The notes under the pieces: model-generated
The model's database searches: none
Told to the model about the DNA's origin: nothing
What the model saw: only the letters and a program-made list of their open reading frames with translations
Part shown: positions 17,860-52,330 of the stretch, in pieces
How positions within the stretch are numbered: the stretch's first letter is position 1
Layout: every line of letters starts with the position of its first letter
Translations under genes and position numbers: made by a program
Source of the DNA: Parapedobacter composti
GTDB taxonomy: Bacteria; Bacteroidota; Bacteroidia; Sphingobacteriales; Sphingobacteriaceae
Reading direction: 5' to 3'
Assembly (NCBI RefSeq): GCF_900112315.1
Contig: NZ_FOLL01000018.1
Location: 1 to 64,000 of the forward strand
Length of the DNA stretch: 64,000 nucleotides

Positions 17860-17860
17860 A

Positions 17861-19654: not shown

Positions 19655-19660
19655 ATCCGA

Positions 19661-20986: not shown

Positions 20987-21007
20987 AAACACGCTTATCG
21001 AATAGAA

Positions 21008-23797: not shown

Positions 23798-23834
23798 AGG
23801 AAGCGTTTGTTAAAATATACGAGAATAGGAACAT

Positions 23835-27589: not shown

Positions 27590-28699
27590 TCAAACAACAT
27601 GTTTTTCGCAGTTTTTAAGATAAGCGTTGTCCATATCAGCCCCTATGCCGGTTGCGTCATCAGTAACTAACCCATAACCTTGATGATACTGGGCACCGCC
27701 TACTACAGGGTCTTCAAGTAGTCCCAGTAATGGGCTATCCAAATCGAAAAAGCGGATGTTTGGCGATGCGTAGGCTAAATGTAGATTGGCTGTGAGGGCA
27801 AATCTGCTTTCCAGCATACCGCCGATCATACAAGCCATCCCCGCATCCGCACAAACTTTCAGGATATTTAATGCTTCCGACAATCCACCGCACTTGGCCA
27901 GCTTAATATTGATGTAGTCACAACTTCCGGTTCTTATTAGCCGCCTGGCATCGTGCGCGGTGTAGCAACTTTCGTCTGCCATGATAGGAATGCTAGTTTT
28001 GCTGCGTAGAGCCGGCAACAGGTCATCGTCCCAACTGCCCATGGGTTGTTCGCAGAACGCTATGTCGTATTGTGCTAAACCCGTAAGGGCCTTCACGGCA
28101 GCGTCGAAATCCCATCCCTGGTTTGCGTCTATTCGGATGCTGACGGCTGGGCCTACGGCCTGCCGGATAGTGGCGATGCGTTGTATATCATCCGATGGTC
28201 TTTTGCCCAGCTTTATTTTCAAGTGCTGTGCACCTTGGACCACATAGCTTGCCGCTTTGGCCGCCATAGTCTCCTTGTCGGCTATACCCACGGTAATATC
28301 GGTATGGATGTCCCTTTTTACCTTACCTGAGTTACCTAAGTAGGCGTACAGGGGCAGGCCAGCCGCTTTTGCGGAAAGATCATGCAGGGCCATGTCAAAA
28401 GCACTCTTGATGGTGTAGTTTCGGGCACAGTAATGGTGCAGTTCTTGAAGGCGGGAAGCGATAGGGGCGACGGGTTTGTTTTTCCATAACCGGGCAAAGT
28501 CCTTAGCGAGGGTTATACAGGTGTCCTGGGTTTCGCCCACGATAACCGGAAACGCCGAACATTCACCTGCGCCGTAGATCCCTTCATCGGTATGTATGCG
28601 GATAAACACGTTTTGCGCGTAGTTCATGGTACCCGTTGCTATGGTGAAAGGTTCCATCGGTATGTTTAACCGATAGATCTCAGTATGTGTGATTCGCAT
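27590..28699 (-). CDS. Dipeptide epimerase (L-Ala-D/L-Glu epimerase-like, enolase superfamily)
   Basis: 369 aa from ATG 28699, 10 bp after the ligase stop; the longer frame would run inside the ligase gene. Enolase-superfamily motifs of the muconate-cycloisomerase branch are present: KIK at residues 161-163 (first catalytic Lys), metal ligands D191, E217 and D242 (RIDANQGW, CEQPM, ADES), and NIKLAKCGG near 264-272 (second Lys). MIGGMLES is typical of dipeptide epimerases. These invert the C-terminal residue of dipeptides, classically L-Ala-D-Glu from murein to L-Ala-L-Glu. Cytosolic. Pairing with a D-Ala-D-X ligase and a locus rich in D-peptide hydrolases supports a role in processing D-residue dipeptides; the exact dipeptide is unknown. 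Confidence 0.88.
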   Translation of the reverse strand: MRITHTEIYRLNIPMEPFTIATGTMNYAQNVFIRIHTDEGIYGAGECSAFPVIVGETQDTCITLAKDFARLWKNKPVAPIASRLQELHHYCARNYTIKSAFDMALHDLSAKAAGLPLYAYLGNSGKVKRDIHTDITVGIADKETMAAKAASYVVQGAQHLKIKLGKRPSDDIQRIATIRQAVGPAVSIRIDANQGWDFDAAVKALTGLAQYDIAFCEQPMGSWDDDLLPALRSKTSIPIMADESCYTAHDARRLIRTGSCDYINIKLAKCGGLSEALNILKVCADAGMACMIGGMLESRFALTANLHLAYASPNIRFFDLDSPLLGLLEDPVVGGAQYHQGYGLVTDDATGIGADMDNAYLKNCEKHVV

Positions 28700-28709
28700 A
28701 TAGGAAACG

Positions 28710-29753
28710 TTATTGGGTTGGTTCAACAACAGCTGATAGATCCTGCGCTTTGGAAATGGAAAGCGCCTCATTAACAAGGTCAACGAAGAATTTTTGCACG
28801 TCAATGCCCGCAGCCCTGAGCTGTTTAGGGATGAAACTTTGGTCGGTCTGTCCGGGTATGGTGTTGATTTCCAGAAAATGGATATGTCCGGTGGTGGCCT
28901 GGAGAATAAAGTCAATCCTTACAACACCAAAACACGCTAAGCGTGTGAAAATACGTTTTGCCGACCGTTCAACCAGGGCAGCCTCGTCGGGTGACAGCCG
29001 AGCGGGTGTAATTTCAATCGTATTGGCGGATTGATATTTGGTCTCGAAATCGAAAAATTCAGCTTGGATGACAACCTCGGAGGGCGGAAGCACCGAGATT
29101 TCGTTTTGAGAACGGAAGACACCTACGGAAATCTCTCGTCCGTCTATGAACTCCTCCACAAGGATCTGTTGGCCAACGTCTTCCGTAAAGGCCTTGTCCA
29201 ATGCAGGCGTAAGCTCGTGCTCATTTTTAACCTTGGAGAGCCCTATGCTGCTTCCGCCATTGTTAGGCTTCACAAACAAAGGAAACCGGAGCCGGGCCGC
29301 TGATATCTCTTGTTCAGCGCTTTTACGGTTTGTGAGCAACACGGATTTTGCCAAATGCAATTCCGGAAGGTCAGCAACTATCGCTTTTGTAAAATATTTG
29401 TTCATGGTGACCGAGGCTGTTAGTTGCCGGCACGAGGTGTACGGAATATTCAATAAATCAAAATAAGCCTGCAAACGTCCGTCTTCGCCCGGTGAACCGT
29501 GGATGCAGATAAATATGACGTCAAACAAAATCTTTTGCCCCTGCAACGCAATGGAGAAATCGCTTTTTTCTACTTCAATACGACGCTGATCACCCGTAAG
29601 GTAATGCCAACTATCCGGTGTGATATAAATCGTATACACGTCAAATTCGGCAGACAGCTGTGTCGCAACGTTTGATGCACTTTTTACGGATATGGGGTAT
29701 TCGCTGGTATATCCACCAGTAAGTAATGCAACTTTTTTCTTGGTCTTTCTCAT
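28710..29753 (-). CDS. D-alanine--D-alanine (D-Ala-D-X) ligase family, ATP-grasp
   Basis: 347 aa, full length for Ddl. The N-terminal domain has KVALLTGGYTSEYPISVKS and FICIHGSPGEDG. The ATP-grasp domain has FPLFVKPNNGGSSIGLSKV, LVEEFIDGREISVGV, the omega-loop FFDFETKY and the metal site FLEINTIPGQTDQSF. It ligates D-Ala with D-Ala or another D-residue in the cytosol. Whether it is the housekeeping Ddl or an accessory ligase cannot be decided here: it sits upstream of the dipeptide epimerase and diverges from an AraC regulator rather than lying in a mur cluster (murF-alr is 23 kb away). Confidence 0.88.
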   Translation of the reverse strand: MRKTKKKVALLTGGYTSEYPISVKSASNVATQLSAEFDVYTIYITPDSWHYLTGDQRRIEVEKSDFSIALQGQKILFDVIFICIHGSPGEDGRLQAYFDLLNIPYTSCRQLTASVTMNKYFTKAIVADLPELHLAKSVLLTNRKSAEQEISAARLRFPLFVKPNNGGSSIGLSKVKNEHELTPALDKAFTEDVGQQILVEEFIDGREISVGVFRSQNEISVLPPSEVVIQAEFFDFETKYQSANTIEITPARLSPDEAALVERSAKRIFTRLACFGVVRIDFILQATTGHIHFLEINTIPGQTDQSFIPKQLRAAGIDVQKFFVDLVNEALSISKAQDLSAVVEPTQ

Positions 29754-29771: not shown

Positions 29772-29779
29772 CAAAAGTA
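29772..29779 (-). promoter_or_regulatory. Candidate -7 box of the ddl-epimerase operon
   Basis: TACTTTTG on the minus strand (29779-29772) matches TAnnTTTG and lies 18 bp before the ligase ATG. It overlaps the right half of the palindrome TTTTGTACAAAA, so a protein bound there would block or bend this promoter. No clear -33 TTTG is seen. Confidence 0.4.
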
Positions 29780-30018
29780 AACTGGTGTTACGGCGGCAGG
29801 TGTGCATCGATTATTGGGTTATAATCAATTCTTATTCAGTGTCACGACGAACCTGAAGTAGGCAAAGCGGTAAAAAATTCGTATAATCGTATAATCTGAT
29901 GGAAATCCATGGTAAAGGCAACGGTTTTTAATCGTTGCTGGTTAGTATGCCGTTGTTTTTGTGATATGGTGTTCGTAAATTCGAACCGTCAAACAGAGAT
30001 GTCACGCGGATGACATTC

Positions 30019-30070: not shown

Positions 30071-30967
30071 ATGAAGATTCTCCATCAAATGACGATGTAT
30101 GACCCTGATGAGCAGTCTATCGTTTTCCAGGACACTTATCCTGTTCCTTATTTACATTGGCATCGAGAGATGCAGGTTATCTGGGTTAAGGAGGGACATG
30201 GAACTTCTATCATAGGTAACCACATTCAGGCTTTCAAGCCCGATGAAATCTATATTGTCGGCGCTAATCAGCCCCACCTGTTCAAGGCATCAGACGGCAA
30301 CCAGCGAAGTATCCGGTTGATATGCCTGTATATCGATCACCATAAAACTCTTTCGGGCGTGCAGCAGCAGGTGCCGGAATTAGGGGCACTGGTGGATTTT
30401 CTCCAGATGGCAGACAATGGCTTGCAGGTGCCTGACGAATGCGTGCAGGCGGTAGGGCAAGACATCATGAAAGTAAAGTCCAGAAAAGGGTTTGACCGTT
30501 TTGTTTATTTTCTCAAGTTTGTCAAAACACTGATAGACATTGGCAGTTGGCACGAATGGACACCGCTTTCGTCGGTGCTTAGCGCCTATACCATGGATGT
30601 CTCGGATCGGCTTGATCTCATCTACCGGTATACGCTGGACCATTACATGAACGAAATTACGCTGGAAGAAATAGCGTCCGTAGCCTGTATGACGCCTAAT
30701 GCGTTTTGTTCGTACTTCAAGAAGTATACACGGAAAACCTATTTTGCATTCCTCAATGATTTGCGCGTTTCCGAAGCCTGTAAGAAATTACTCAATGGCG
30801 AATACCACACAATTTCTGCGGTAGCCTATGCTTCTGGTTTCGTTAATACCATAACGTTCAACCGGGTATTCCGCAAGGCGATGGCAATGACCCCAAGCGA
30901 GTATGTTGAGCGGTTCAAACCCAAGCAAAAGGCGGTAGCTCCGTTTTCTGCGGATGCTTTTTTTTAA
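30071..30967 (+). CDS. AraC-family transcriptional regulator
   Basis: 298 aa. The N-terminal cupin-like sensor part (LHWHREMQVIWVKEGHG, PDEIYIVGANQPHLF) is followed by an all-helical middle and the C-terminal double HTH: ITLEEIASVACMTPNAFCSYFK and AYASGFVNTITFNRVFR, ending MTPSEYVERF. It is similar in layout to the AraC regulator at the left of the window. It diverges from the ligase-epimerase pair and precedes the S12/M19 genes, so it is the likely regulator of the D-peptide locus. Whether it senses a peptide or an amino acid is not evident. Confidence 0.9.
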   Translation: MKILHQMTMYDPDEQSIVFQDTYPVPYLHWHREMQVIWVKEGHGTSIIGNHIQAFKPDEIYIVGANQPHLFKASDGNQRSIRLICLYIDHHKTLSGVQQQVPELGALVDFLQMADNGLQVPDECVQAVGQDIMKVKSRKGFDRFVYFLKFVKTLIDIGSWHEWTPLSSVLSAYTMDVSDRLDLIYRYTLDHYMNEITLEEIASVACMTPNAFCSYFKKYTRKTYFAFLNDLRVSEACKKLLNGEYHTISAVAYASGFVNTITFNRVFRKAMAMTPSEYVERFKPKQKAVAPFSADAFF

Positions 30968-31012
30968 TCGGTTTTGCAATGATTAAAATTTGATTATACC
31001 CGGATAATTCAT

Positions 31013-31045
31013 GTAACGGGTGGGGGTGGATAACCGCTAACTTTG
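31013..31045 (+). promoter_or_regulatory. Promoter with GTAACGGGTGGG box, N13, TAACTTTG
   Basis: The -7 box TAACTTTG (31038-31045) is preceded at exactly 13 bp by GTAACGGGTGGG (31013-31024), in place of the usual TTTG at -33. The same arrangement with 10 of 12 identical bases occurs before the serine hydrolase at 35276. A shared activator site, perhaps for the AraC protein encoded just upstream, is inferred. Confidence 0.55.
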
Positions 31046-31083
31046 CGTGGTATCACTACATGCGTGTCTTTTATTCGGATATC

Positions 31084-32244
31084 ATGAATAATCAAATTAC
31101 TTTGCCGTTTAAGTTGCTGTTACTTTGGTTGTTATGCTCCAGTCTTCTGGCTTGGGGCCAGCAGAGGGCGGCGGCTACGGTGCCCATTCAAGCGGTCGAT
31201 GAAGTTATGGCTGATTTCATGACCAAATATAACGTGCCAGGAGCCGTTGTGGCAATTAGTAAAGATGAACAGCTGGTATATGCTAAGGGATATGGTTATG
31301 CAGATACGGCCCGAAAGGAAAAAATGAGCCCGGGCTACCTGTTCCGGATAGCAAGTATTTCAAAACCTATCACCGCCATAGCCATCTTAAAGCTGGTGGA
31401 AGAGCGACGGCTTTCACTCGACCAACGGGTGTTTGGATCGGATGGGATACTTGGTACCCGGTATGGCACTGCACCATATGCCAAGGATATATTTGCTATT
31501 ACCGTCAGGCATCTGCTACAGCACACGTGTGGGGGGTGGGGTAATAAGAATGGAAAAGATCCCATGTTTTTGCATCCAACGTGGCCCGTGGATAAACTCA
31601 TCAGTTATACGCTGGATAGCATTCCGCTTGAGTACACTCCGGGCGAACGGTATATATACTCCAATTTTGGTTATTGCCTCTTAGGGCGGATTATCGAAAC
31701 GGTGACAATGCAGACGTATGAAAACTATGTGAAAAATTCGGTCTTAACCCGATTGGGAATCAAGAGTATGCGGATAGGAGGCAATACGCTGGCCGACCGT
31801 GTTCCCGGGGAAACCCTATATTACGGGCAGCAACCGGGCGGGCTGCATCCTTACATTTACAACATTTCCCGGATGGACGCACATGGAGGATGGTTGGCAT
31901 CGGCTGAAGATTTAATGACCTTAATGGCGCACGTGGATGGTTTTTCCAACAAGCCGGATATATTGAGCGATGAAACTATCCAGTTGATGACAACCGTAGC
32001 CAATGCCACGGATAACACCACCTACGCCTATGGATGGCGGGTGGATGGCGATGGCAATTGGTGGCATAGTGGTTCACTTCCCGGCACCGGGACACACCTG
32101 AAGAGGATGGCCAATGGGTTCAATTGGACGGTATTAACCAACACCCGCGTGACCGGTGGTGATTTCTTTACGGACTTGGAGAAGGTATTGACCACGGTGG
32201 TTTCCGATACTACAATCGTCTGGCCCAACCCTCAGGAGTTTTAA
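31084..32244 (+). CDS. Exported serine hydrolase, beta-lactamase class C / S12 type (S12a)
   Basis: 386 aa from ATG 31084, which gives a clean signal peptide (LLLLWLLCSSLLAWGQ); an in-frame ATG at 31060 would add 8 residues. The S12 active site is complete: SISK at 91-94 (nucleophile Ser, general-base Lys), YSNFGY (YxN motif) and WWHSGS (the third, HSG-type motif). Family members are D-aminopeptidases, D,D-carboxypeptidases, esterases or beta-lactamases. Periplasmic. It is 18 bp upstream of an M19 dipeptidase lipoprotein. The closest relative in the window is the lipoprotein at 42106 (same GYADT/GWADR, FG..GILG, LLQH/VLQH blocks). A D-peptidase role is inferred from context only. Confidence 0.85.
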   Translation: MNNQITLPFKLLLLWLLCSSLLAWGQQRAAATVPIQAVDEVMADFMTKYNVPGAVVAISKDEQLVYAKGYGYADTARKEKMSPGYLFRIASISKPITAIAILKLVEERRLSLDQRVFGSDGILGTRYGTAPYAKDIFAITVRHLLQHTCGGWGNKNGKDPMFLHPTWPVDKLISYTLDSIPLEYTPGERYIYSNFGYCLLGRIIETVTMQTYENYVKNSVLTRLGIKSMRIGGNTLADRVPGETLYYGQQPGGLHPYIYNISRMDAHGGWLASAEDLMTLMAHVDGFSNKPDILSDETIQLMTTVANATDNTTYAYGWRVDGDGNWWHSGSLPGTGTHLKRMANGFNWTVLTNTRVTGGDFFTDLEKVLTTVVSDTTIVWPNPQEF

Positions 32245-32262: not shown

Positions 32263-33450
32263 ATGAAATACGAAGTGTTATTGTCTTTGGTATGGCTATT
32301 AGCCTCATGCGGGGAATTGTCTAAGCGTAAGGCGGATCCCATCGTCGTGGACGCGCATAACGATGTATTGTCCGGCACCGTATTGAAGGGCTTTGATATC
32401 TCCGTTCTGCTGGACACAGGAAATACGGATTTTGTCCGGTTGAAAGCAGGCGGAGTGGGATTACAGATCTTTGCGGTGTTTGGCGACCAGCGTTATACCG
32501 GTAGCCAGGGTTTTAGTTTTGCAAACCGGCAAATCGACTCGCTTTATGCCCTTGCACGCCGCCATCGTGATAAAATTGGGGTCGCACATACGGTGCTACA
32601 GGCAAAAGAAATGATTGCCGAGGGCAGGATAGCGGGCATGGTCGGCCTGGAGGGGGGGCACATGATGGGCGACGATCTGGATAACCTTGATAGTCTGGCC
32701 AAACGCGGGGTCGTTTACATGACCCTCACCTGGAATAACAGCAACACTTGGGCCACATCGTCTGCCGACGAAGAGGACGCTGGCAAGCAACTGGAATGGA
32801 AGGGATTGACTGATTTCGGGAAGCAGGTGGTGCGGCGGATGAACAAGCTGGGCATGGCGGTAGATGTATCCCATGCGGGCGAAAAAACGTTTTATGACGT
32901 GATAGCGGTGTCTAAGCTGCCAATCCTGGCTTCTCACTCCAACGCCCGGGCCTTGTGCAATGTGCACCGCAATTTAACCGACCATCAGATTAGCGCTATT
33001 GCCAAAACGGGAGGAGTAGTGTGCGTAACGTTTTACGCGCCGTTTTTGGACGATACTTATAACCAACGTATTGAGAAAGCCATGCAACGGTATCCCCTTG
33101 TGGTGGATTCCCTGAAAGCGGCCGGATATGACTCCCATGATCGGCTGACGGCTGCTTTGTTGTCGGTCAAGCCCGACCTGGGCGATGAATTGAGGCCGCC
33201 CATCGGCCGCGTAGTGGATCACATCGACCACATTGTGTCGGTCGCGGGCATAGACCATGTTGGCATCGGGAGCGATTATTTCGGGCTGGCTACTTTCCCT
33301 TACCCCGATGGGTTACGAGACGTGACCGGATATCCTCGGCTTGCCCAAGCACTGGCAGACCGAGGCTATTCCAGTGAAGACGTAACTAAAATTTTGGGGG
33401 CTAATGTGCTAAGGGTGCTCCAAGATAACATTCAGGCTAAAACTCGATAA
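32263..33450 (+). CDS. Membrane dipeptidase, peptidase family M19, lipoprotein
   Basis: 395 aa. Lipobox LLASC, lipid Cys near residue 16. M19 (renal dipeptidase) motifs: VVDAHNDVLSG (HxD zinc ligands), GLEGGHMMG (bridging Glu), LTWNNSNTWATS, VDVSHAGEKTFYD and ASHSNARALC (zinc His), and GIGSDYFG near the C-terminus. M19 enzymes cleave dipeptides and tolerate D-residues at the C-terminal side. It lies between two S12 serine hydrolases, with 18 bp and 1 bp gaps, in an operon. It is shorter than the paralogue at 44391 because it lacks the fused M15 domain. Confidence 0.92.
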   Translation: MKYEVLLSLVWLLASCGELSKRKADPIVVDAHNDVLSGTVLKGFDISVLLDTGNTDFVRLKAGGVGLQIFAVFGDQRYTGSQGFSFANRQIDSLYALARRHRDKIGVAHTVLQAKEMIAEGRIAGMVGLEGGHMMGDDLDNLDSLAKRGVVYMTLTWNNSNTWATSSADEEDAGKQLEWKGLTDFGKQVVRRMNKLGMAVDVSHAGEKTFYDVIAVSKLPILASHSNARALCNVHRNLTDHQISAIAKTGGVVCVTFYAPFLDDTYNQRIEKAMQRYPLVVDSLKAAGYDSHDRLTAALLSVKPDLGDELRPPIGRVVDHIDHIVSVAGIDHVGIGSDYFGLATFPYPDGLRDVTGYPRLAQALADRGYSSEDVTKILGANVLRVLQDNIQAKTR

Positions 33451-33451
33451 G

Positions 33452-35080
33452 ATGAACAATATGTTGGTATTATTGGAACACGGGACGCTGGCTCATACAC
33501 TTGCCCGGATGCTGGCGATGGTTTTGCTGCTAAATACGGCCGTGGCTCAGTCAGGTAAACCGCATACCGCTGCGATGCCCGAAGGTTTTGATCAATATGT
33601 GCAACAGGTGCTGGAAGCATTCGGGGTGCCGGGCGTGAGCATATCCGTGGTGAAAGACGGCGAAGTCTTATTGGCGAAAGGGTATGGCGTAAAAGTGCTG
33701 GATAAGCCGGATCCGGTGGACGACCGTACGCTGTTTTGCATCGCCAGCAACTCAAAAGCCTTTACTGCTACGCTGTTAGCACTCTTAGTAGAGGAGGGTA
33801 AGATCGGTTGGGACGATTTGGTAATTGACCATTTACCTTGGTTTAAGATGGCCGATCCGTATGTTACCAATCATCTTACGATTGAGGATTTGCTGGTGCA
33901 CAGAAGTGGACTAGGCTTGGGAGCGGGAGATCTTCTTCAGTTTCCGCCCACAACTTACTCCGCAAGAGAGATTGTTGAGCGGTTGAAATATATTCCGTTA
34001 GCTACGAGTTTCCGGCAGGCTTATGCATATGATAATATCCTTTATGTCGTAGCAGGTGAATTGATCCGGGAAATAACTGGGAAATCCTGGGAGGAAAATG
34101 TGGAATCCCGTATTTTCCAGCCATTGGGGATGAGCGGGAGTATCGCCCGTATTTCTGAATTGATGAAGCAGCCCAACATCGCTCATCCGCATACGCCGGT
34201 GGAGGGTGTGGTGGCCGTCGGCCGGAATTTTCCGGATATCCGGATGGGCGATGCATCTAATGCGGCTGGAGGGATCTCATCGAATGCCCGTGATATGGCG
34301 GCATGGCTGAAATTCCAGCTGGATTCCGGGATGTCACCGAGCGGGAAGCGGTTGCTGCCACCGGCTGCTATTGAGCGGCTGTGGACTATCGTAACGCCCA
34401 TGCCGCTGTATAAACCGCGCCCGCATCTGGCTCCATTGAAACAACAGTATTCAGGATACGGGCTGGGCTTCCGGATTCATAACTATCGTGATCATCAAAT
34501 CGTTACGCATACTGGTGGATTGAGTGGTGCATTTTATTCGAGGGTAACCTTAGTACCCCGATTGGGCTTGGGGATAGCCGTATTGACCAACCAGGAGTCC
34601 CGCAATGCCTTTGAAGCCATTACTCATCATTTAATGGATAATTTTCTGCAAGTGAAACCAGAGTTTGACTGGTTGGCAGCCCATCAGCAGGAAGAGGATT
34701 TGCAAAAAGCACGGGTCGCCACAATCGAATCAGTAGCTCATCAGCAACGCGACAGTTTATCTTCTCCGTCATTGAACTTGCAGGCATATGCTGGCACGTA
34801 CCGGGATCGCTGGTACGGCGATGTGGTTATTGAGGTTGAAGGGGATAGCCTGGCCATACGGTTTTCGCAAACTCCGGCGTTGGTGGGGCGGCTACGGCAT
34901 TGGCAGCATAATACATTCGTAGCCTGGTGGGACGACCGTAGCCTGAAATCCGACGCGTTCGTTACGTTTATCATTGGCCCCGAAGGCAAAGTGGACGAGA
35001 TAAAAATGAAAGCATTTTCACCAGCGGTCAATTTCAGCAGGGATTTTCATGATCTGGAGCTTTTTCCGGTAAAAAATTGA
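33452..35080 (+). CDS. Exported S12-type serine hydrolase with C-terminal DUF3471-like domain (S12b)
   Basis: 542 aa, starting one base after the M19 stop. Signal region ends near TAVAQ. Catalytic domain ~45-410: SNSK at 99-102, YAYDNILY (YxN) and THTGGLSG (HTG motif). Residues ~445-540 form a lipocalin-like DUF3471 beta-domain (YAGTYRDRWYGDVVI ... HWQHNTFVAWWDDRSLKSDAFVTF). It is closely similar along its whole length to the protein at 47761, including GFDQYVQ, the PPTTY loop and the tail. Role inferred as D-peptide or ester hydrolysis in the periplasm. Confidence 0.85.
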   Translation: MNNMLVLLEHGTLAHTLARMLAMVLLLNTAVAQSGKPHTAAMPEGFDQYVQQVLEAFGVPGVSISVVKDGEVLLAKGYGVKVLDKPDPVDDRTLFCIASNSKAFTATLLALLVEEGKIGWDDLVIDHLPWFKMADPYVTNHLTIEDLLVHRSGLGLGAGDLLQFPPTTYSAREIVERLKYIPLATSFRQAYAYDNILYVVAGELIREITGKSWEENVESRIFQPLGMSGSIARISELMKQPNIAHPHTPVEGVVAVGRNFPDIRMGDASNAAGGISSNARDMAAWLKFQLDSGMSPSGKRLLPPAAIERLWTIVTPMPLYKPRPHLAPLKQQYSGYGLGFRIHNYRDHQIVTHTGGLSGAFYSRVTLVPRLGLGIAVLTNQESRNAFEAITHHLMDNFLQVKPEFDWLAAHQQEEDLQKARVATIESVAHQQRDSLSSPSLNLQAYAGTYRDRWYGDVVIEVEGDSLAIRFSQTPALVGRLRHWQHNTFVAWWDDRSLKSDAFVTFIIGPEGKVDEIKMKAFSPAVNFSRDFHDLELFPVKN

Positions 35081-35236: not shown

Positions 35237-35269
35237 GTAATAGGTGGGAAAACATAGTAGTTAACTTTG
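35237..35269 (+). promoter_or_regulatory. Second promoter with GTAATAGGTGGG box, N13, TAACTTTG
   Basis: GTAATAGGTGGG (35237-35248), a 13-bp spacer and TAACTTTG (35262-35269), the same layout as at 31013-31045. The first ATG lies only 6 bp after the -7 box, so the transcript would be leaderless or nearly so. Confidence 0.55.
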
Positions 35270-35275
35270 TCTATC

Positions 35276-36910
35276 ATGATTATGAAAAGAGAATGGTGTA
35301 GTCTTTTGCTTATTTTCTGCTTTTATAACGGATGTTGGGCGCAATTCTCCCTGAGTCGGGGCGGGGTTGCTCGGCTGGACAGCGTATTGAGAAGGGATAT
35401 GGGTAAGCCGGGAGTTGTGCTGGCAATATCATCGGGCAATGAATTGATTTACGAGAAGGCCATGGGATTGGCCAGTCTGGAATGGAATACACCCATGACT
35501 TCAGACGCTGTGTTCGAAGCAGGCTCGGTATCCAAGCAGTTTACCGCTGCCACGGTACTCAAACTAATAGAACAAAAGCGCCTTTCGCTCGACGATGATG
35601 TGCGGAAATACGTTCCGGAGTTGCCGGACTACGGCGAAGAAATAACCATCCGGCATCTGCTTACGATGACCAGCGGATTGCGGGATTGGAGGAATATCAC
35701 CTATTTAATGGGAAAGGCTACGTTTGCCTGTGCTTATAGCCAGTCAGACGCGCTAGAGATTATCTGCAGGCAGCGGGAATTGAATTTTGCGCCGGGCACC
35801 AAATATTCCTATTCCAACTCCAATTATGATCTCCTAAGCATCATCGTATACCGGATCACCAAGGAGCCGTTCGTGAAGTTTTCAACCCGTGAAGTGCTTG
35901 ACCCGGTGGGCTTCATGCATGCAAAGTGGAGGGACAATGCGCTGGAAGTTGTCACCAAAAAGGTAGATTCCTATCGCTTCAGCGAAGCAGCGAACCGGTA
36001 TTTTACGCAAGATCTGTTGGAGCGGACGCACGGTGCGGCTGGTATGTTGGTGACCGCCGCCGACCTCATCAAGTGGAGCAATCACTGGGCATCCGGAAAA
36101 TTCGGGGAAACCTTGGGAAAATTGCGGGAAACGAGGGGACGACTCATCGATGGGAGTGAAATTGCTTATGCCTACGGAGGGGTGCGGGTGACGAATCTTG
36201 GCCGGCTACGGGAGGTCACGCACAGTGGTTTGGTGGCCGGTTACAGGGCTTGGCTGGCTTACTATCCGGAAGCAGAGGTGTCCGTTGCCTGCCTTACCAA
36301 TGATCGATCGTTCGAGATAGCGAAAGTGCGCAATATCATCGGTGAACTGTTAACCGGAGAAAGGTTGGCGGAGCCAAAATCCCTCGTGGCCATGTCGCCC
36401 TCCCAATTGGCTGATCTACGGGGTATCTATAAAGGGGTCGATCACTTTCAGTGCTTCGAAATCAAGACCGATGGCGCGGTGGCTGTTATAGGTAAAGACA
36501 CATTGGGCGCCATTGCGAAAGACACGTTGGTGTCCGGACATACAACCTATATCCTTAAGCCGGAAGGTACAATCGCGGTACATGCTGCTGATGAAGTGCG
36601 TGAATATAAAAAGGTGAATGCGTACAACCCCACTGAAAAGGATCTGAAAGCGTTGGAAGGGCGCTACGTGAATGACGAACTCTCCTTGGATCTCGAGTTG
36701 AAGGTTAAAGACGGCAAACTTGTTGCGTACCGGAAAGCGCACGACAGCATGACGCTTAACCCCACTTATGAAGACGGCCATGAAGCAGGATTTTATACGC
36801 TTTCAAACGGGTTGCGGGCACTTTTCGCGTTCACCCGAAGTAGGGATGGCCATATGGGACTTACCGTAAGCATTCCGAGAGCAGAACATTTTTCGTTTAC
36901 CAAACATTAA
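35276..36910 (+). CDS. Exported S12-type serine hydrolase with C-terminal beta-domain (S12c)
   Basis: 544 aa from ATG 35276; ATG 35282 is equally possible and would leave a short leader. Signal peptide ends near CWAQ. S12 motifs: SVSK at 84-87, YSNSNYDLL (YxN) and THSGLVAGYR (HSG). The last ~150 residues form a beta-rich DUF3471-like domain. It differs more from the other four serine hydrolases than they do among themselves in pairs, so it is not part of the duplicated unit. It opens the operon that carries the collagen-like lipoprotein and SusC-SusD. Confidence 0.83.
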   Translation: MIMKREWCSLLLIFCFYNGCWAQFSLSRGGVARLDSVLRRDMGKPGVVLAISSGNELIYEKAMGLASLEWNTPMTSDAVFEAGSVSKQFTAATVLKLIEQKRLSLDDDVRKYVPELPDYGEEITIRHLLTMTSGLRDWRNITYLMGKATFACAYSQSDALEIICRQRELNFAPGTKYSYSNSNYDLLSIIVYRITKEPFVKFSTREVLDPVGFMHAKWRDNALEVVTKKVDSYRFSEAANRYFTQDLLERTHGAAGMLVTAADLIKWSNHWASGKFGETLGKLRETRGRLIDGSEIAYAYGGVRVTNLGRLREVTHSGLVAGYRAWLAYYPEAEVSVACLTNDRSFEIAKVRNIIGELLTGERLAEPKSLVAMSPSQLADLRGIYKGVDHFQCFEIKTDGAVAVIGKDTLGAIAKDTLVSGHTTYILKPEGTIAVHAADEVREYKKVNAYNPTEKDLKALEGRYVNDELSLDLELKVKDGKLVAYRKAHDSMTLNPTYEDGHEAGFYTLSNGLRALFAFTRSRDGHMGLTVSIPRAEHFSFTKH

Positions 36911-36921
36911 TCAAAATCAAT

Positions 36922-37476
36922 ATGAAAAAGACCGTTACCTTAATCTTGAATGCAGCGCTGTGCTGCCTGACGATGTTCCACTTGTCTTCATGTGAAAAAG
37001 AGGGGCCTATGGGGCCGGCAGGACCTATCGGTGAAACAGGCCCGCAGGGCGAACAGGGGCCACAGGGAGAGAAAGGAGACACCGGTGGGTTTAGTCCCAA
37101 AGTTTACAACTACGAGAACTTTACGGTTCCCGAAGGAGCCTCGGCTTCAAATTACGTGCAGTTGGAAGACCTGTCAAAAGAGGGCTTTGAAAGCAGTGTA
37201 ATACTGATTTACGCTGCGCGTGGTATCAATTGGATACACCTGCCGGGACCGAGTGTGGGAACGCCGAGGAGAACCTATCGCGTATTCTACACCTTTCCTG
37301 AAAATGAAACGCAGACAAGGCTGTACATTGCAAGGGTAGACGGCGGGACGGCAGCCGAAACCTTTGAAAAATTGAGGATTGTGGTCGTACCAGTGCAAGA
37401 AATCGGGGGGCTTCAGGCCAGCGGCATAAATCTGAAGGATTACACAACAGTAAGCCATGTGCTGAATTTGAATTGA
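36922..37476 (+). CDS. Lipoprotein with collagen-like Gly-X-Y repeat
   Basis: 184 aa. Lipobox LSSC, lipid Cys at residue 24. Directly after the anchor, residues 28-54 are nine uninterrupted Gly-X-Y triplets (GPM GPA GPI GET GPQ GEQ GPQ GEK GDT). A ~125-residue globular domain with no family I recognise follows. Gly-X-Y repeats can form a trimeric triple-helical stalk, so the protein may be a trimeric surface lipoprotein presenting its C-terminal domain. It sits 11 bp after S12c and 23 bp before SusC, so it is part of the uptake operon and may be a surface binding component (inference). Confidence 0.8.
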   Translation: MKKTVTLILNAALCCLTMFHLSSCEKEGPMGPAGPIGETGPQGEQGPQGEKGDTGGFSPKVYNYENFTVPEGASASNYVQLEDLSKEGFESSVILIYAARGINWIHLPGPSVGTPRRTYRVFYTFPENETQTRLYIARVDGGTAAETFEKLRIVVVPVQEIGGLQASGINLKDYTTVSHVLNLN

Positions 37477-37499
37477 ACTTAGAGAACAGTATCAGATTA

Positions 37500-40400
37500 A
37501 TGAGACATACGCCAACCAAAATGATTAAAGATAATATAAATAAGGTGTTAATTTCGGCCATCCTGCTGCTTTCGATTGGCGTCCATGTTGCAAATGGAAC
37601 AATTTCAGCGGTACAGCAGTTTACTGCACGTGGGCGGGTCGTTGATGCAAAGGACGGCTCACCGCTGTCGGGGGTGTCGATTGCCGTTAAAGGGGGAAGC
37701 CGTACGACGGTTAGCGACCGACAGGGCAACTTTGCTATTGAAGTACCTACGAACAGATCAGTACTGGTGTTTACCTTTGTTGGTTATGCGCTTCAAGAAT
37801 ACACGTTGGCCGGGGAACTAGCGAATCTCACCGTGTATATGGAACCCATGGTTACGGCGATAGACGAGGTGGAAATTTCCGTGCCTTATGGTACGGAAAC
37901 CAAAGCATCAATTACGGGTTCTGCCGTCGTTATCAAGGGTGAACAACTGGCTGATCGGCCGCGGAGCACTTTTCAAACTTCTTTACAGGGTAATGTACCT
38001 GGACTCCAGGTAATGGAATCTACCGGGCAACCCGGAGCGGCCCCCACGGTTAGGCTGAGGGGGCTTACCTCGTTTTCCGGAACGGTTACGCCGCTTTATG
38101 TCATAGATGGAGTGCCTATGCTCACCCAGGGGGTTGCGGGACTGGCTTTCTCATCCAATAGCGGTGCAGGCATCAATCCAAATGATATTGAGGATATTAC
38201 TGTGCTGAAAGACGGCTCGGCATCTTCCATCTACGGCTCCCAAGGGGCGAACGGCGTTATCCTCATAACTACCAAAAGTGGAAAGGCCGGGAAGACCCGC
38301 ATTAATATGTCTGCAAATTATGGCCAGAACCGCATGGCTTTTGGCGACCGCGCCAAACCCCTGAACACCGCGGAAATGACGCAGTTACTGATTGAGGGGG
38401 TTATCAATAGTAACATTAACCCGACCTTGGAAGCCATTACGACCCCCGAAGCGGCTTACCTGTACTTGGTTCAGAATGGTCTTAACCCGGATGTTGATAC
38501 GGACTGGACGGACGTCATCACCCAAATCGGGCAATATTCGCAGTACAATGTTTCTGCATCGGGCGGCAATGACAAAACCAACTTCTTTGTTTCGGGCGGA
38601 TACTATAAGCAGGATGCCGTAACCAAGGGGCAGGGCTACGACCGGAAGACAGGCCGGTTGAATATCAACCACAAGGCCAATGACAAATTATCGTTTAACG
38701 GTCGAATCGCATTAACAGCCCAGCATTTGAATACCGTGCCGGGGGCCGGTACCGGCCAGAACCCGGTGAGAAGCCTGTATCGGTTTGTACCCTGGCTGTC
38801 TCCCCTGGATGAAAATGGCGAGTATAATTCTCAAATCACCTATAATCCATTGGTTGTGCAGAACGAGAATAGATACGAAACCCATATTTATCAAGCTATC
38901 GGCAATGTGGGGGCTGCTTATCAGTTTACGGATTATTTGACGTATGAAGGGAAGGCTGGTATTGATTTCCATTATTCCGATGATTACCGGTATTGGAGTC
39001 CAATCTGGCCGGATGGCCGGGGGGTAAACGGACGTGGCATGGAATATAATAGGTTGTGGAATAACTGGACGGTAAATAATATCCTACGATACAAGGATGA
39101 CTTCGGCGACTTCGGTATCACAGCGACTTTGGGTCAGGAGGCTGCAAAACGCAACTTGAAGAGTGTCAGTACGCAAGCTCAGAACTTCGTGGCTGAAGAT
39201 CTGTATACCCTGGCAAATACATCAGAGCCTTACATTGCCTGGAGCTCCCGGTCGCATGCGACGTTGGCTTCTTATTTCCTGAATACCAGTTTTAACTATC
39301 AGCAGAAGTACTATTTGAATGTTACCGGACGCCGTGATGGCTCGTCACGTTTCGGTAAACAGGTGAGATGGGCCAACTTCTGGTCGCTTGGCGCGTCATG
39401 GAATGTACACCGGGAAAGCTTTATGGAGAACTTAGATTTCGTCAACCAGCTGAAATTCCGGATCAGTTACGGTACCAGTGGTAACATGTTGGGCGAATAT
39501 TACGGAGCTTTGGGTTTTTACTCAACCAACCAGAACTATATGGGCCAACCGGGCTTTGCCATCGGACAGATAGAGAGCGGGTTGCTTCAATGGGAGCTGA
39601 ACAGGCCCCTGGATATTGGGCTGGAGTTTTCCGTGTTGAATAACCGGTTGAGCGGAACCTTCGATTGGTATACCCGGCAAACATCGCGGCTGATTCAGGA
39701 TATGCCGGTGTCGCATACCAATGGCGTAACGCAATTGAACTTCAATGTGGGAGGTATGAAAAACTACGGTGTGGAAATCAGCTTGAGTTCACATAACGTC
39801 GTCGGCGAAAACGGGAGCTTTGATTGGCGTACGGATTTCAACATCACTACGCTCAACAATAAAATAACGGCTATCCAGGATGGCCGGCGTTATGAAGGCC
39901 GTTATGTGCGCGAAGTTGGGGGAGATTATTACCAATTCCGGATGCGGGGTTATGCAGGGGTCGAACGTACTACGGGACAGGCCTTGTGGTTTACGGACAG
40001 TACACGGACGGCCACAACCACAGAATTCAATCAGGCAGGCATCTTCAAGCAGGAAGGAAAGAGTGCTTTGGCTGATTTTTATGGGGGTTTTACCAATACG
40101 TTTTCCTACAGGGGTTTTTCACTTTCTGCCTTGATTTACTTCAACTGGGGCAATTTCGTTTATGACCCTTGGGGGCCATACACGCACTCAGACGGTTCGG
40201 CGATGCTGGGCGAAGCAGCGCTGATGAGCCGGATGGTGTATCGCCACCGCTGGCGGCAGCCGGGTGATGATGCCGAGTATCCCAAGATTGTATACGGAGG
40301 AAACCAATCGGGCCAAAACGACTATCATTCCACCCGGTTTCTTTACGATGGTAGTTACATTCGATTGCGTGATGTAACGCTATCCTATTCGCTCCCCGTA

Positions 40401-40580
40401 CAGCGCCTGCGCCTGCCTTTTGCCAGCGCCAGTATTTATTTCCGGGCAAACAACCTCTACACCTGGGTCAAGGATGATTTGCTGCCCTACGACCCTGAGG
40501 TAGGCTACGGTGGCCAGTATGACCAGAACTTGCCCATCGCCAAACAGTATGCCTTGGGTATCGATATTTCGTTTAGGTAA
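37500..40580 (+). CDS. SusC/RagA-family receptor of the D-peptide locus
   Basis: 1026 aa from ATG 37500; ATG 37521 gives a tighter signal peptide (KVLISAILLLSIG). CarboxypepD-reg-like domain (ARGRVVDAKDGSPLSGVSIAVKG), then DEVEISVPYGTETK in place of the usual VVVGYG, plug motifs LYVIDGVPM and VLKDGSASSIYGSQGANGVI, and a barrel ending ALGIDISF. Its SusD follows 15 bp later. No glycosidase is encoded in this locus; the flanking enzymes are peptidase-like, so the imported ligand is more likely a peptide or peptidoglycan fragment than a plain glycan (inference; RagAB shows that SusCD-type pairs can import peptides). Confidence 0.93.
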   Translation: MRHTPTKMIKDNINKVLISAILLLSIGVHVANGTISAVQQFTARGRVVDAKDGSPLSGVSIAVKGGSRTTVSDRQGNFAIEVPTNRSVLVFTFVGYALQEYTLAGELANLTVYMEPMVTAIDEVEISVPYGTETKASITGSAVVIKGEQLADRPRSTFQTSLQGNVPGLQVMESTGQPGAAPTVRLRGLTSFSGTVTPLYVIDGVPMLTQGVAGLAFSSNSGAGINPNDIEDITVLKDGSASSIYGSQGANGVILITTKSGKAGKTRINMSANYGQNRMAFGDRAKPLNTAEMTQLLIEGVINSNINPTLEAITTPEAAYLYLVQNGLNPDVDTDWTDVITQIGQYSQYNVSASGGNDKTNFFVSGGYYKQDAVTKGQGYDRKTGRLNINHKANDKLSFNGRIALTAQHLNTVPGAGTGQNPVRSLYRFVPWLSPLDENGEYNSQITYNPLVVQNENRYETHIYQAIGNVGAAYQFTDYLTYEGKAGIDFHYSDDYRYWSPIWPDGRGVNGRGMEYNRLWNNWTVNNILRYKDDFGDFGITATLGQEAAKRNLKSVSTQAQNFVAEDLYTLANTSEPYIAWSSRSHATLASYFLNTSFNYQQKYYLNVTGRRDGSSRFGKQVRWANFWSLGASWNVHRESFMENLDFVNQLKFRISYGTSGNMLGEYYGALGFYSTNQNYMGQPGFAIGQIESGLLQWELNRPLDIGLEFSVLNNRLSGTFDWYTRQTSRLIQDMPVSHTNGVTQLNFNVGGMKNYGVEISLSSHNVVGENGSFDWRTDFNITTLNNKITAIQDGRRYEGRYVREVGGDYYQFRMRGYAGVERTTGQALWFTDSTRTATTTEFNQAGIFKQEGKSALADFYGGFTNTFSYRGFSLSALIYFNWGNFVYDPWGPYTHSDGSAMLGEAALMSRMVYRHRWRQPGDDAEYPKIVYGGNQSGQNDYHSTRFLYDGSYIRLRDVTLSYSLPVQRLRLPFASASIYFRANNLYTWVKDDLLPYDPEVGYGGQYDQNLPIAKQYALGIDISFR

Positions 40581-40595
40581 TTTATTTAATTTGAA

Positions 40596-42047
40596 ATGGA
40601 AACAAAGATTCAGTATATGGTAAAGCTCCGTAGGTTGGCCGGCATGTTCCTCATGGTTTCGGCACTATGTTCGGGGTGCAGCGAGGGCTTCCTGGATGAA
40701 ACCAACCCCCAGTCCGTCGGTTTCGATCACATCAAGGATTTGAAGTCACTCACAGCGGCAACCACCGGGGTGTACAACAGCTTTAACAACAGTAACTATT
40801 ATGGGCGTACATTTGTCGTTTCGCCTGAATTGTTCGGCGACAACTCGTTCATCAGTATACGCAATGGCGGGAGATACCTCGGGCATGACCGGTTTACCGT
40901 CACCAATGGTGATGGTTATGTTACAGGGGCTTGGACGCAGATGAACCGTGTGGTTGCCAATGCAAATCTGGCCATTCAGGCAGGAAACCAACTGACTTTC
41001 CCGGAGGGACAGCGGGCAGCGGCCAACCAAATCATGGGCGAATTATATGCCTGCCGGGCACTGGCGTGGTTTGATATGGTCCGTTATTTCGCCCAGCCGT
41101 ACAATTACACCGAAGATGCTTCGCATCTGGGAATACCGTTGGTCACTGAACCGCCGGGGGTAATCATCTCACCATCGAGGGGCACAGTGGCAGAGGCTTA
41201 CACGCATATCGTGGCTGATTTATTGCGCGCCGAGGAGCTTTTGGGCAGCGCGAAGAAAAATGGCTATTTCAATAAAGCTGGCGCGCAGGCATTGCTGGCC
41301 AAGGTTTACCTGTACATGGAAGATTGGGAAAATGCCGAGATTTATGCGACGAAGGTGATTGAAGAAAGTGCAGGCTATACGTTGCTGTCCAATGCAGATT
41401 ATGTGGCCAGTTGGGGGCAAAAATTCAGTGTTGAGTCTATCCTCGAAATCGGTATGCTGCCAACGGACAACAACGGCGCCAACAGTATAGGTTACCTGTC
41501 TGAACAAGGCGGATACGGAGAATGGTTGGCAACGAAGGAACTTTACGATACTTATTCGCAAACGGATATCCGTCGTAACCTCATCGTGCCAGGCTCACGG
41601 GAAAATGCCGAATCCGAAGCATACTTTATTAAAAAATACCCGTTGGGGGCTTCATCACGTGACGATAACATAAAAGTGCTTCGCCTATCGGAGGTATACC
41701 TCATCCGCGCGGAAGCCAGGGCAGAGCTAAGCAAAACGCAGCCAGATAAAGCGGCAGGTGCCTTAAGTGATCTGAATGCGATCGTAGGCCGTGCCGACCC
41801 TGAAGCAAGCGTGTCGGGCTTGCAGGGGGACGCGTTGGTTGAACGGATTATTTTGGAACGCCGGAAGGAACTGGCTTTTGAAGGCAACCGGTTATTTGAC
41901 ATAAACCGTAAAAAGATGTCTTTAGTGCATATACAGACGAATCAAATCCGGACATTCGAATATCCTAACAACCGGTTTATCATGCCGATTCCGTATGCGG
42001 AACGGAATGCTAATCCGAATATTCAGCCAAATCCTGGCTGGAATTAA
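40596..42047 (+). CDS. SusD/RagB-family outer-membrane lipoprotein of the D-peptide locus
   Basis: 483 aa, shorter than the two SusD proteins of the glycan locus (596-606). Lipobox LCSGC; the lipid Cys is near residue 28. RagB/SusD signatures: ELYACRALAWFDMVRYFAQPY, LRLSEVYLIRAEARAEL and ERRKELAFEGNRLFDINR. The compact size resembles the RagB branch, whose known member binds peptides. It should form the lid of the preceding SusC. Confidence 0.94.
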   Translation: METKIQYMVKLRRLAGMFLMVSALCSGCSEGFLDETNPQSVGFDHIKDLKSLTAATTGVYNSFNNSNYYGRTFVVSPELFGDNSFISIRNGGRYLGHDRFTVTNGDGYVTGAWTQMNRVVANANLAIQAGNQLTFPEGQRAAANQIMGELYACRALAWFDMVRYFAQPYNYTEDASHLGIPLVTEPPGVIISPSRGTVAEAYTHIVADLLRAEELLGSAKKNGYFNKAGAQALLAKVYLYMEDWENAEIYATKVIEESAGYTLLSNADYVASWGQKFSVESILEIGMLPTDNNGANSIGYLSEQGGYGEWLATKELYDTYSQTDIRRNLIVPGSRENAESEAYFIKKYPLGASSRDDNIKVLRLSEVYLIRAEARAELSKTQPDKAAGALSDLNAIVGRADPEASVSGLQGDALVERIILERRKELAFEGNRLFDINRKKMSLVHIQTNQIRTFEYPNNRFIMPIPYAERNANPNIQPNPGWN

Positions 42048-42105
42048 TCGGTGGAATGTTTAGGAATTAGAATGGATGGAACGTAAACTTATAAATTATT
42101 CTATT

Positions 42106-43311
42106 ATGAATAGCGTTATGAAGAGGCATTTCGGCCATTTTTTTCACGCCGGTATTTGGATGCTCGCGTTGGCATTGGTGTTCACCTCCTGTAGCAAGCA
42201 GGATCTACAGCCGGATTTGCCTGACCTCCCGGAACCGGGTAGTAACCATGAATTTAGCCTTGCGCTGGTTGACGATCCCATCGTCGATTTCATGGCCCGC
42301 TACAACGTGCCTGGGGCGTCCGTCGCCATCAGTAGGAACGGGAAGCTGGTGTACGCAAAGGGTTACGGGTGGGCCGACCGGGAATCGGCTACGCCCGTGG
42401 ATACTTCAAGCCTATTCAGAATCGCCAGCCTGTCCAAGTTTGTCACATCCGTAGGTATCATGACATTGATTGATAAAGGGCAACTGAATATGAACGACAA
42501 GGTGTTCGGCCCGGGCTCCATTCTGGGCGACGAATATGGCGGCGCCCCTTATCCTCAATATATCACCGATATCACGTTACGGAATGTTCTTCAGCATGAG
42601 ATAGGCGGGTGGAACAACTCCAGCGGCGATCCCGCTTTCCAGCAGCCCGGTTTGAATGCCCGGGAGCTCATCGCATGGACAATAAGAAACCGACCGCTAA
42701 CCGCAGCCCCGGGCACGAAACTGGACTACTCGAATTTAGGGTATATCCTCCTAGGGCGTATCATCGAAAAGGTGAGCGGCAAGCCGTATGTAGAATACAT
42801 CCGGCAGGAAATATTTGACAAAGTGGGGATTAAAAATATGCAGATTGCCGGCGGAACGCTGGCAGAACGGAAACCCAATGAAGTAAAGTACTATGGCCAG
42901 CATGGGCAGAACCCGTATGGATACGCCGCCGGAGTTGTTCCCCGGCTCGAGGCCTGTGGAGGGTGGATAGCGTCGGCAATCGATTACCTGCGGATGGTTG
43001 TGCATGTCGATGGGCTACCGTCCCCGTCCGATATATTGAGCCCGGCAACCATCGAAGTCATGTCAACACCTTCACCTAATTCTGTCTACGCCTGCGGTAT
43101 ACGCATCAGTGCGGTCAACAAGAACTGGTGGCATGGCGGAGGACTTGCCGGAACCCGCACCTGGATGGTGAAGGCGTCCAATGGTTTCGCCTGGACGATT
43201 TTTTTCAACACCCGCAATACATCAGACGGATTTGATAATGCAGTGAATGAATTGGTCTGGCCTGCAGTGAACAACGCATCCACCAACTGGCCTGATATAG
43301 ACATGTTTTGA
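42106..43311 (+). CDS. S12-type serine hydrolase lipoprotein (S12a paralogue)
   Basis: 401 aa from ATG 42106; other in-frame ATGs lie at 42076 and 42118. Lipobox FTSC, lipid Cys at 29 from this start. Active site: SLSK at 108-111, YSNLGY and WWHGGG (HGG in place of HSG). Sequence blocks VPGASVAISR, LVYAKGYGWAD, SILGDEYGGAPYPQYI and GGWNNSSGDPAF correspond one to one with the exported enzyme at 31084, marking them as duplicates. Here the copy has gained a lipid anchor. Follows SusD by 58 bp. Confidence 0.86.
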   Translation: MNSVMKRHFGHFFHAGIWMLALALVFTSCSKQDLQPDLPDLPEPGSNHEFSLALVDDPIVDFMARYNVPGASVAISRNGKLVYAKGYGWADRESATPVDTSSLFRIASLSKFVTSVGIMTLIDKGQLNMNDKVFGPGSILGDEYGGAPYPQYITDITLRNVLQHEIGGWNNSSGDPAFQQPGLNARELIAWTIRNRPLTAAPGTKLDYSNLGYILLGRIIEKVSGKPYVEYIRQEIFDKVGIKNMQIAGGTLAERKPNEVKYYGQHGQNPYGYAAGVVPRLEACGGWIASAIDYLRMVVHVDGLPSPSDILSPATIEVMSTPSPNSVYACGIRISAVNKNWWHGGGLAGTRTWMVKASNGFAWTIFFNTRNTSDGFDNAVNELVWPAVNNASTNWPDIDMF

Positions 43312-43378
43312 TTTGAGGCAGCAAGGGTGTAGGTTTTACATTCGTCGGCACGCCGCCGTTCCGGAGCACAAAACAGGT

Positions 43379-44371: not shown

Positions 44372-44390
44372 GATATTGAAAACCTTTCGA

Positions 44391-52273: not shown

Positions 52274-52330
52274 ACGGGCCAAAATGGGAAAAAATTGGTG
52301 CAGTCACTAAAAAATGTTGAAATTCGTGCC

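Follow-up and report, generated by a model that had tools for sequence, protein, structure and literature searches.

The window analysed here is a stretch of 64,000 nucleotides from Parapedobacter composti (contig NZ_FOLL01000018.1, positions 1 to 64,000), in which ddl2, a gene coding for a D-Ala-D-Ala-type ligase, stands directly upstream of a gene coding for a dipeptide epimerase. A first-pass annotation of this DNA described the pair as divergent from a D-peptide locus, which we confirmed: both genes lie on the minus strand, and an AraC-family regulator, S12 serine hydrolases, M19 dipeptidases and SusC/SusD proteins are encoded divergently to their right (Table 1). We found that the two genes are intact, that ddl2 is a second Ddl gene of this genome, that linkage and gene order are conserved in other genomes and that one promoter element occurs at two places. 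Ligase and epimerase probably function together rather than being neighbours by chance, and the pair is most likely co-regulated with the divergent locus. The interpretation offered by the first-pass annotation holds in part. Its central point, that murein recycling alone hardly accounts for an anabolic ligase next to a catabolic epimerase, is supported. Of its three readings, ddl2 as the sole Ddl gene is refuted, protection from a VanX-like enzyme is poorly supported in the form proposed, and the synthesis of a special dipeptide by the pair is a possibility.

Linkage of a second ligase gene to the epimerase gene

Two Ddl matches were found in the genome (G000 in our numbering; 4.62 Mb in 61 contigs, 99.6% complete): besides the window copy there is an intact open reading frame (ORF) of 332 amino acids at C44:117057-118055, with 51% identity between them. 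The C44 gene adjoins a gene for an apparent PASTA-domain protein, assigned by eye, and no catabolic cluster was seen around it. The possibility had been raised that the window copy is the sole Ddl, placed incidentally and without co-regulation with the locus; two Ddls were counted, the linkage to the epimerase is conserved and the shared promoter element described below supports co-regulation, which together refute it. We surveyed Ddl proteins (E <= 1e-60) in 151 genomes of the family and then in 400 genomes of the order, with up to five candidates scored in each genome. The family genomes gave 152 matches in 146 genomes, six having two matches and five none, and across the order the same six genomes had two matches and 11 had none. 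In four of these six two-Ddl genomes (G000, G028, G087 and G139), the extra ddl gene is located directly upstream of an epimerase gene and on the same strand, the junctions being a gap of 10 bp (that of the window, with the epimerase gene downstream), an ATGA overlap, and distances of 32 bp and 132 bp. This recurrence is more than chance.

The four paired loci also share an AraC-family protein (50-72% identical to that of the window), SusC/SusD, the S12 hydrolases c, d and e, an M19 dipeptidase, the epimerase and an inner-membrane transporter. The transporter itself differs and is an APC protein in the window, a DUF819 protein in G087 and G028 and an OPT protein in G139. Using SusD as a marker for the locus (E <= 1e-110, 400 genomes, up to three candidates scored in each), we detected it in five of the 400 genomes, the fifth being G265, and an AraC relative is encoded in all five loci. 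A hypergeometric calculation gives 7e-8 for finding four of these five locus genomes among the six two-Ddl genomes, assuming independent genomes, which they are not. The paired loci span two genera and two gene orders: in G139, which belongs to another genus, the genes for AraC, Ddl2, the epimerase and SusC share a strand, so that the order is different but the pair persists. This retention of the pair is a stronger point than the hypergeometric figure. A DUF819 protein is encoded in three of the five loci (L105:3-1235 in G087, L107:585-1829 in G028 and L125:1586-2827 in G265), which suggests that DUF819 proteins can act as amino acid or dipeptide carriers.

A search of 395 genomes of the class with SusD (E <= 1e-90, up to four candidates each) returned only G000 and the distant genomes G613, G727 and G736, whose 40-kb regions lack the set of S12, M19 and epimerase genes; the G727 region contains one distant epimerase (34%) and the G613 region one relative of the OCD protein (39%). 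Conservation of the whole locus beyond the order is rejected by this search. No Ddl was found by blastp in flanks of up to 10 kb around 66 further loci from a contig search, many of these flanks being shorter and a few of the loci being distant relatives only. In the remaining two genomes with an extra Ddl, G068 (C1 1280000-1319999) and G093 (C19 195000-234999), that gene lies 17-18 kb from an epimerase gene in another cluster, which contains SIS, PfkB, DeoR and amidohydrolase genes (Pfam was run for G068 only). The extra Ddl gene of G068 adjoins the amidohydrolase gene and divergent SIS/PfkB genes, which makes this another apparently catabolic neighbourhood with a surplus Ddl.

Trees were calculated from 29 Ddl sequences chosen against a total of 152 family matches (eight from loci and 21 others, one of the latter from G265, which is outside the family survey) and from 40 chosen epimerase sequences. 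The window Ddl groups with the G087 and G028 copies (100/99), and neither the G139 copy nor the two cluster copies belong to either of the large groups of other Ddls, in a tree with long branches in which the placement of the G028 and G139 copies is unsure. The epimerases of the same three same-genus loci group as well (99/86), and those of G139 and G265 fall elsewhere. Within the group of three, the inner order is identical in both trees with moderate support (89/75 and 93/69). Joint inheritance of the pair is visible within the genus only.

A promoter element at ddl2 and in the divergent locus

A 37-nt element is common to the 150 bp preceding ddl2 and the intergenic region between the araC gene and the first S12 gene (S12a), with 28 of 37 positions identical, an identity that was reached in none of 5000 dinucleotide shuffles, the length of 37 nt having been picked with the match already in view. 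Over a 24-nt stretch, the upstream regions of ddl2 and S12a agree at 19 positions, a figure reached in 2 of 5000 shuffles when one strand was considered and in 2 of 1000 for both strands, and the next best gene of the window is SusD, whose upstream region agrees at 18 positions. At both sites, an operator is followed by TANNTTTG, which we take to be the Bacteroidetes -7 box. When a spacing of 26-33 nt was allowed, operator and -7 box matched exactly twice in the 4.62 Mb of the genome, at the ddl2 and the S12a site, and a reversed control pattern had no match. For an operator pattern with up to three mismatches there were three matches, two of them exact, versus 0.67 expected. As operator and -7 box occur genome-wide only at these two sites, the ddl2-epimerase pair is most likely co-regulated with the locus, and the AraC-family protein is a candidate activator of both operons.

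The combined pattern also precedes ddl2 of G087 and G139 and the epimerase gene of G265, with a spacing of 30 nt, and a looser pattern precedes S12c of G087. In a scan of 11 genomes, the looser pattern gave 10 matches, six of them within loci, two elsewhere in G087 and two in G045/G078, which belong to the six same-genus genomes without a detected locus. A matrix built from the two window sites gives these a score of 28.0; elsewhere in the window no place exceeds 13.3. The G087 ddl2 site scores 18.6, and G068, a genome without the locus, has a match at 17.2. What stands out from background is the combination of operator core and -7 box with fixed spacing; the core alone does not for G139 and G265. 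A scan for sigma-70 promoters showed no excess, with four found versus 6.9 expected.

The two enzymes and their surroundings

By curated score, Ddl2 is a D-Ala-D-Ala ligase: it passes the NCBIfam D-alanine--D-alanine ligase model NF002527 (323.5 bits, cut-off 310) and TIGR01205 (273.3, cut-off 245.65), narrowly fails NF002528 (256.6 versus 262), reaches NF002378 at the threshold (243 versus 243) and matches PF07478 and PF01820. Its assignment as a D-Ala-D-Ser or D-Ala-D-Lac (Van) ligase was rejected, since it scores 201.5 versus 520 for NF000207 and 156.9 versus 550 for NF000206 and fails the other Van-ligase models too, among the matches listed (25 of 52). An alignment with E. coli DdlB places all of E15, H63, K97, K144, S150, S151, E187, K215, Y216, R255, D257, E270, N272, G276 and S281, presumably catalytic or substrate residues, in Ddl2 as well, and H280, L282 and L183 are replaced with Q, F and I, respectively. 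Phenylalanine at the L282 position is the usual state in other Ddls too, and at Y216, S281 and L282, which we assume to be the second-site residues, Ddl2 has Y, S and F, the same as the common housekeeping state. Two positions flanking the S281-L282 loop separate all six extra Ddls from all 23 others compared. The first is D/N in the extra Ddls (D304 in Ddl2) versus A (19), E (3) or I (1) in the others, and the second is K (K310 in Ddl2) versus Q in all 23. These changes may reflect a shifted second-substrate preference or merely shared descent. Structure prediction from the Ddl2 sequence alone gave low confidence (mean pLDDT 33.6), and we did not rely on it.

The epimerase gene is likewise intact, with the Pfam domains MR_MLE_N and MR_MLE_C. 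A longer ORF with a TTG start (27590-28915) would overlap ddl2 by 206 bp; because the alignments of relatives begin at the ATG at 28699, we take this as the start and do not need the TTG ORF. The best solved relative is 3q45 (E 7.8e-82, aligned over the full length), presumably, like 3q4d, the D-Ala-D-Ala epimerase of Cytophaga hutchinsonii; 3q45 is reported to have this activity in work by Lukk and colleagues in PNAS in 2012. The window protein keeps the residues of a dipeptide epimerase, namely the lysine pair, the three metal ligands and the C-terminal DxD motif (K161/K163, D191, E217, D242, K266 and D319/D321). We assume that the lysines are catalytic and that the DxD motif serves the dipeptide amine. 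At the position of R24 in the B. subtilis Ala-Glu epimerase (1jpm), an arginine that presumably serves the Glu side chain, both the window epimerase and 3q45 have glycine, and both have the DxD motif. An L-Ala-D/L-Glu epimerase of murein recycling was rejected as an identity for the window protein based on this glycine and on the scores for NF041118 (188.9 versus 500) and NF011708 (136.2 versus 343).

We also compared the five locus epimerases with 31 others of the family, leaving out two rows labelled dX and two outgroup rows. R221 is present in 30 of the 31 others and H327 in all 31, and in the three same-genus locus epimerases R221 is replaced with G, G and H and H327 with L in each. The pairwise alignment places S and F at these positions in 3q45. 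In a simple hydropathy test, neither Ddl2 nor the epimerase showed an N-terminal hydrophobic stretch or a lipobox, and no export signal was seen for the epimerase. The genome encodes a second close epimerase on C35, 62% identical to that of the window, and four distant superfamily members. The C35 gene (C35 123400-131000) adjoins deoxyhypusine-synthase-like and 1504-aa glutamate-synthase-like genes, named by eye, and part of this gene order is found again in several same-genus genomes.

The features of the window are listed in Table 1. The same hydropathy test showed a hydrophobic stretch at the N terminus of each of the seven S12 and M19 proteins, a lipobox in three of them and neither feature in the OCD protein. 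The best NCBIfam match of S12c is a D-aminopeptidase model at 120.5 bits, far under the cut-off of 443. The M15 part of the M19-M15 fusion was seen in the window locus only, its counterparts in the other four loci being M19 proteins of 372-394 amino acids; as the fusion protein has a lipobox, its VanX-type domain is probably outside the cytoplasm. A counterpart of the OCD protein was not found in the other four loci by blastp labelling. A second set of SusC, SusD and S12 genes is present at C23 59180-67724, with a SusD 54% identical to that of the locus, and no Ddl or epimerase was labelled in the 40 kb around it.

Table 1. Genes and promoter elements of the window discussed in the text
Feature	Position	Strand	Remarks
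Glycan locus left of the epimerase gene	15157-26638	+	alpha-L-rhamnosidase, GH20-like, GDSL (partly by eye)
Dipeptide epimerase (enolase superfamily)	27590..28699	-	369 aa; PF13378, PF02746; second operon gene
ddl2, D-Ala-D-Ala-type ATP-grasp ligase	28710..29753	-	347 aa; first gene of two-gene operon
Operator TTGATTA-N8-TAAT, then -7 box TANNTTTG after 30 nt	29772..29828	-	upstream of ddl2
AraC-family regulator with cupin	30071..30967	+	PF12833; PF07883 just under cut-off
Second operator and -7 box, spacing 29	30990..31045	+	upstream of first S12 gene
S12 (beta-lactamase-fold) serine hydrolase a	31060..32244	+	PF00144; N-terminal hydrophobic stretch
M19 membrane dipeptidase	32263..33450	+	PF01244; lipobox
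S12 serine hydrolase b with DUF3471	33452..35080	+	PF00144, PF11954
S12 serine hydrolase c	35267..36910	+	PF00144
Collagen-like small lipoprotein	36922..37476	+	weak PF01391 under cut-off; lipobox
SusC-type outer-membrane transporter	37473..40580	+	by eye; relative in all five loci
SusD-type lipoprotein	40596..42047	+	by eye; locus marker
S12 serine hydrolase d	42076..43311	+	PF00144; lipobox
OCD family, probable delta1-pyrroline-2-carboxylate reductase	43313..44320	+	NF004793 366 bits, cut-off 322
M19 dipeptidase fused to VanX-type M15	44376..46271	+	PF01244, PF01427; lipobox
APC amino acid permease	46268..47761	+	PF13520
S12 serine hydrolase e with DUF3471	47761..49347	+	PF00144, PF11954
MurF-alanine racemase fusion	52190-54793	+	sole Ala_racemase_C match of the genome

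Possible roles of the pair

We tentatively favour the view that Ddl2 and the epimerase are the dedicated cytoplasmic enzymes of a locus that is inducible and serves the use of D-peptides, in which Ddl2 would keep up the supply of D-Ala-D-Ala for the cell wall. The substrates of every enzyme, the direction of the reactions, the induction and the physiological purpose are what we infer here. To begin with, the exported S12 and M19 enzymes would cut peptides containing D-residues, and the SusC/SusD proteins and the inner-membrane transporter would import the pieces. The AraC-family protein, or another factor acting on the same operator, would turn on both divergent operons together. In the next step, Ddl2 would use ATP to make D-Ala-D-Ala, or D-Ala-D-Xaa, in the cytoplasm, and the epimerase would invert the C-terminal residue of this dipeptide; the resulting D-Ala-L-Xaa could be cleaved by ordinary dipeptidases. 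Ligase and epimerase would thus work in turn on the same D-Ala-D-Xaa pool. A strongly induced epimerase would drain D-Ala-D-Ala, and Ddl2 would refill the pool of wall precursor.

Several observations weigh against this proposal. The locus of G265 contains genes for an epimerase and a DUF819 protein and none for Ddl2, and this genome has one Ddl; the ligase is therefore not obligatory for the locus. In G031, the one further case of neighbouring Ddl and epimerase genes noticed among the matches listed, the sole Ddl gene lies 386 bp from the sole close epimerase gene, in convergent orientation and without a D-peptide locus around them (C34 300392-302862), and proximity of the two genes can thus arise otherwise. 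A close epimerase is present in 103 of the 151 family genomes versus a second Ddl in six, so that most genomes manage with one Ddl. As the G139 and G265 epimerases retain R221 and H327, a change of specificity is not general. With regard to co-regulation, G028 has the locus but no match to the operator pattern in the scan of 11 genomes, the matrix without the -7 box scores the G139 and G265 sites at 12.5, no better than background, and the pattern was devised after the sites had been inspected, hence its rarity and not its presence is the test. Furthermore, we recognised no gene for a cytoplasmic dipeptidase among those of the locus, a point that also counts against the alternative considered next.

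A possible alternative, to which we give a clearly lower probability, is a shuttle with D-Ala as the carrier. Ddl2 would ligate it to a D-amino acid, which would then be inverted by the epimerase and freed as the L-amino acid by a dipeptidase. The net reaction would convert a D-amino acid and ATP to an L-amino acid with return of D-Ala, one-way, for several D-amino acids and without racemases or oxidases. Ddl enzymes are less selective at the C-terminal position. The window locus codes for an amino acid permease and a probable pyrroline-2-carboxylate reductase, both of which would fit such a route, as would the two positions flanking the S281-L282 loop at which the extra Ddls differ from the 23 others, although these may merely mark shared ancestry. 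Dipeptide epimerases invert the C-terminal residue, according to a report on an engineered cascade (PMC13338154), and this is the residue that the shuttle needs inverted. In that cascade, TabS ligase and the Thermotoga maritima dipeptide epimerase turn L-amino acids into an L-D dipeptide in vitro, that is, in the opposite sense (PMC13338154). It resembles the window pair in that an ATP-grasp dipeptide ligase is followed by C-terminal epimerisation, but it is engineered, whereas the window pair is natural, has a D-type ligase and probably runs in the D-to-L direction. The shuttle would spend one ATP per residue, and the second-site residues of Ddl2 (Y, S, F) equal the common housekeeping state. 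If the epimerase acts on D-Ala-D-Xaa, replenishment of the wall precursor and D-to-L conversion would be the same chemistry with different purposes; we prefer replenishment because Ddl2 looks ordinary and its gene precedes that of the epimerase in each of the four loci.

It is unlikely, in our view, that the two enzymes act in parallel, with Ddl2 salvaging D-Ala derived from D-peptides as D-Ala-D-Ala and the epimerase disposing of surplus dipeptide. The checked residues of Ddl2 are those of an ordinary Ddl and the sole Ala_racemase_C match of the genome is the MurF-alanine racemase fusion, both of which would suit such a salvage, but the housekeeping Ddl could suffice for it, and it would leave unexplained why the ligase gene immediately precedes the epimerase gene in each of the four loci. 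A separate catabolic alanine racemase of the Ala_racemase_C family was not found genome-wide.

We consider it very improbable that Ddl2 is a drug-tolerant isozyme, for example against D-cycloserine-like compounds or dipeptide analogues that the locus helps degrade: inducible second copies of a target are a known resistance logic, which this would fit, but no resistance gene was recognised nearby, in a search not aimed at such genes, and the close link with the epimerase is not accounted for. Least probable of all is the earlier suggestion that Ddl2 protects the cell from a VanX-like enzyme of the same locus, for the M15 VanX-type domain that prompts it is carried by a lipobox protein, probably extracytoplasmic, and was not detected in the M19 counterparts of the G087, G028 and G139 loci (VanX elsewhere in these genomes was not searched for), so that such protection does not explain the other three ddl2 genes.

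Compared with known systems, Ddl2 resembles the Ddl enzymes of TIGR01205 and NF002527 in passing their curated cut-offs and in the checked catalytic residues, and differs in that its gene is an additional one, located in an apparently inducible locus of catabolic appearance, and in that two loop positions beside the second-substrate pocket are changed. The epimerase shares with the C. hutchinsonii enzyme (3q45/3q4d), its closest solved relative, the glycine at the R24 position and the DxD motif; we know of no operon joining the C. hutchinsonii epimerase gene to a Ddl gene. With the L-Ala-D/L-Glu epimerases YcjG and YkfB it has the superfamily group and the catalytic lysine pair in common, but it falls below their curated cut-offs and has the glycine. 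As in van operons, a Ddl-superfamily ligase and, in the window only, a VanX-type domain are encoded in one neighbourhood. However, the ligase is far below the Van cut-offs among the matches listed, and the VanX-type domain is optional and probably exported. No VanH or VanRS was recognised among the neighbours, in an inspection that did not extend genome-wide. A van resistance operon, which would comprise a VanH dehydrogenase, a Van ligase, a cytoplasmic VanX and usually VanRS, was rejected as an identity for the locus, given the failed Van cut-offs, the M15 domain on a lipobox protein and the adjoining AraC-family regulator.

An open full-text search of the literature found no account of a natural Ddl-epimerase pair. 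As an essential target of antibiotics, Ddl is usually regarded as a cell-wall enzyme and nothing else. A conserved and apparently co-induced second Ddl would mean either that D-amino acids are used by a new route or that a catabolic operon includes a safety device for the cell wall, and the shuttle, if true, would be an ATP-driven conversion of several D-amino acids to their L-forms.

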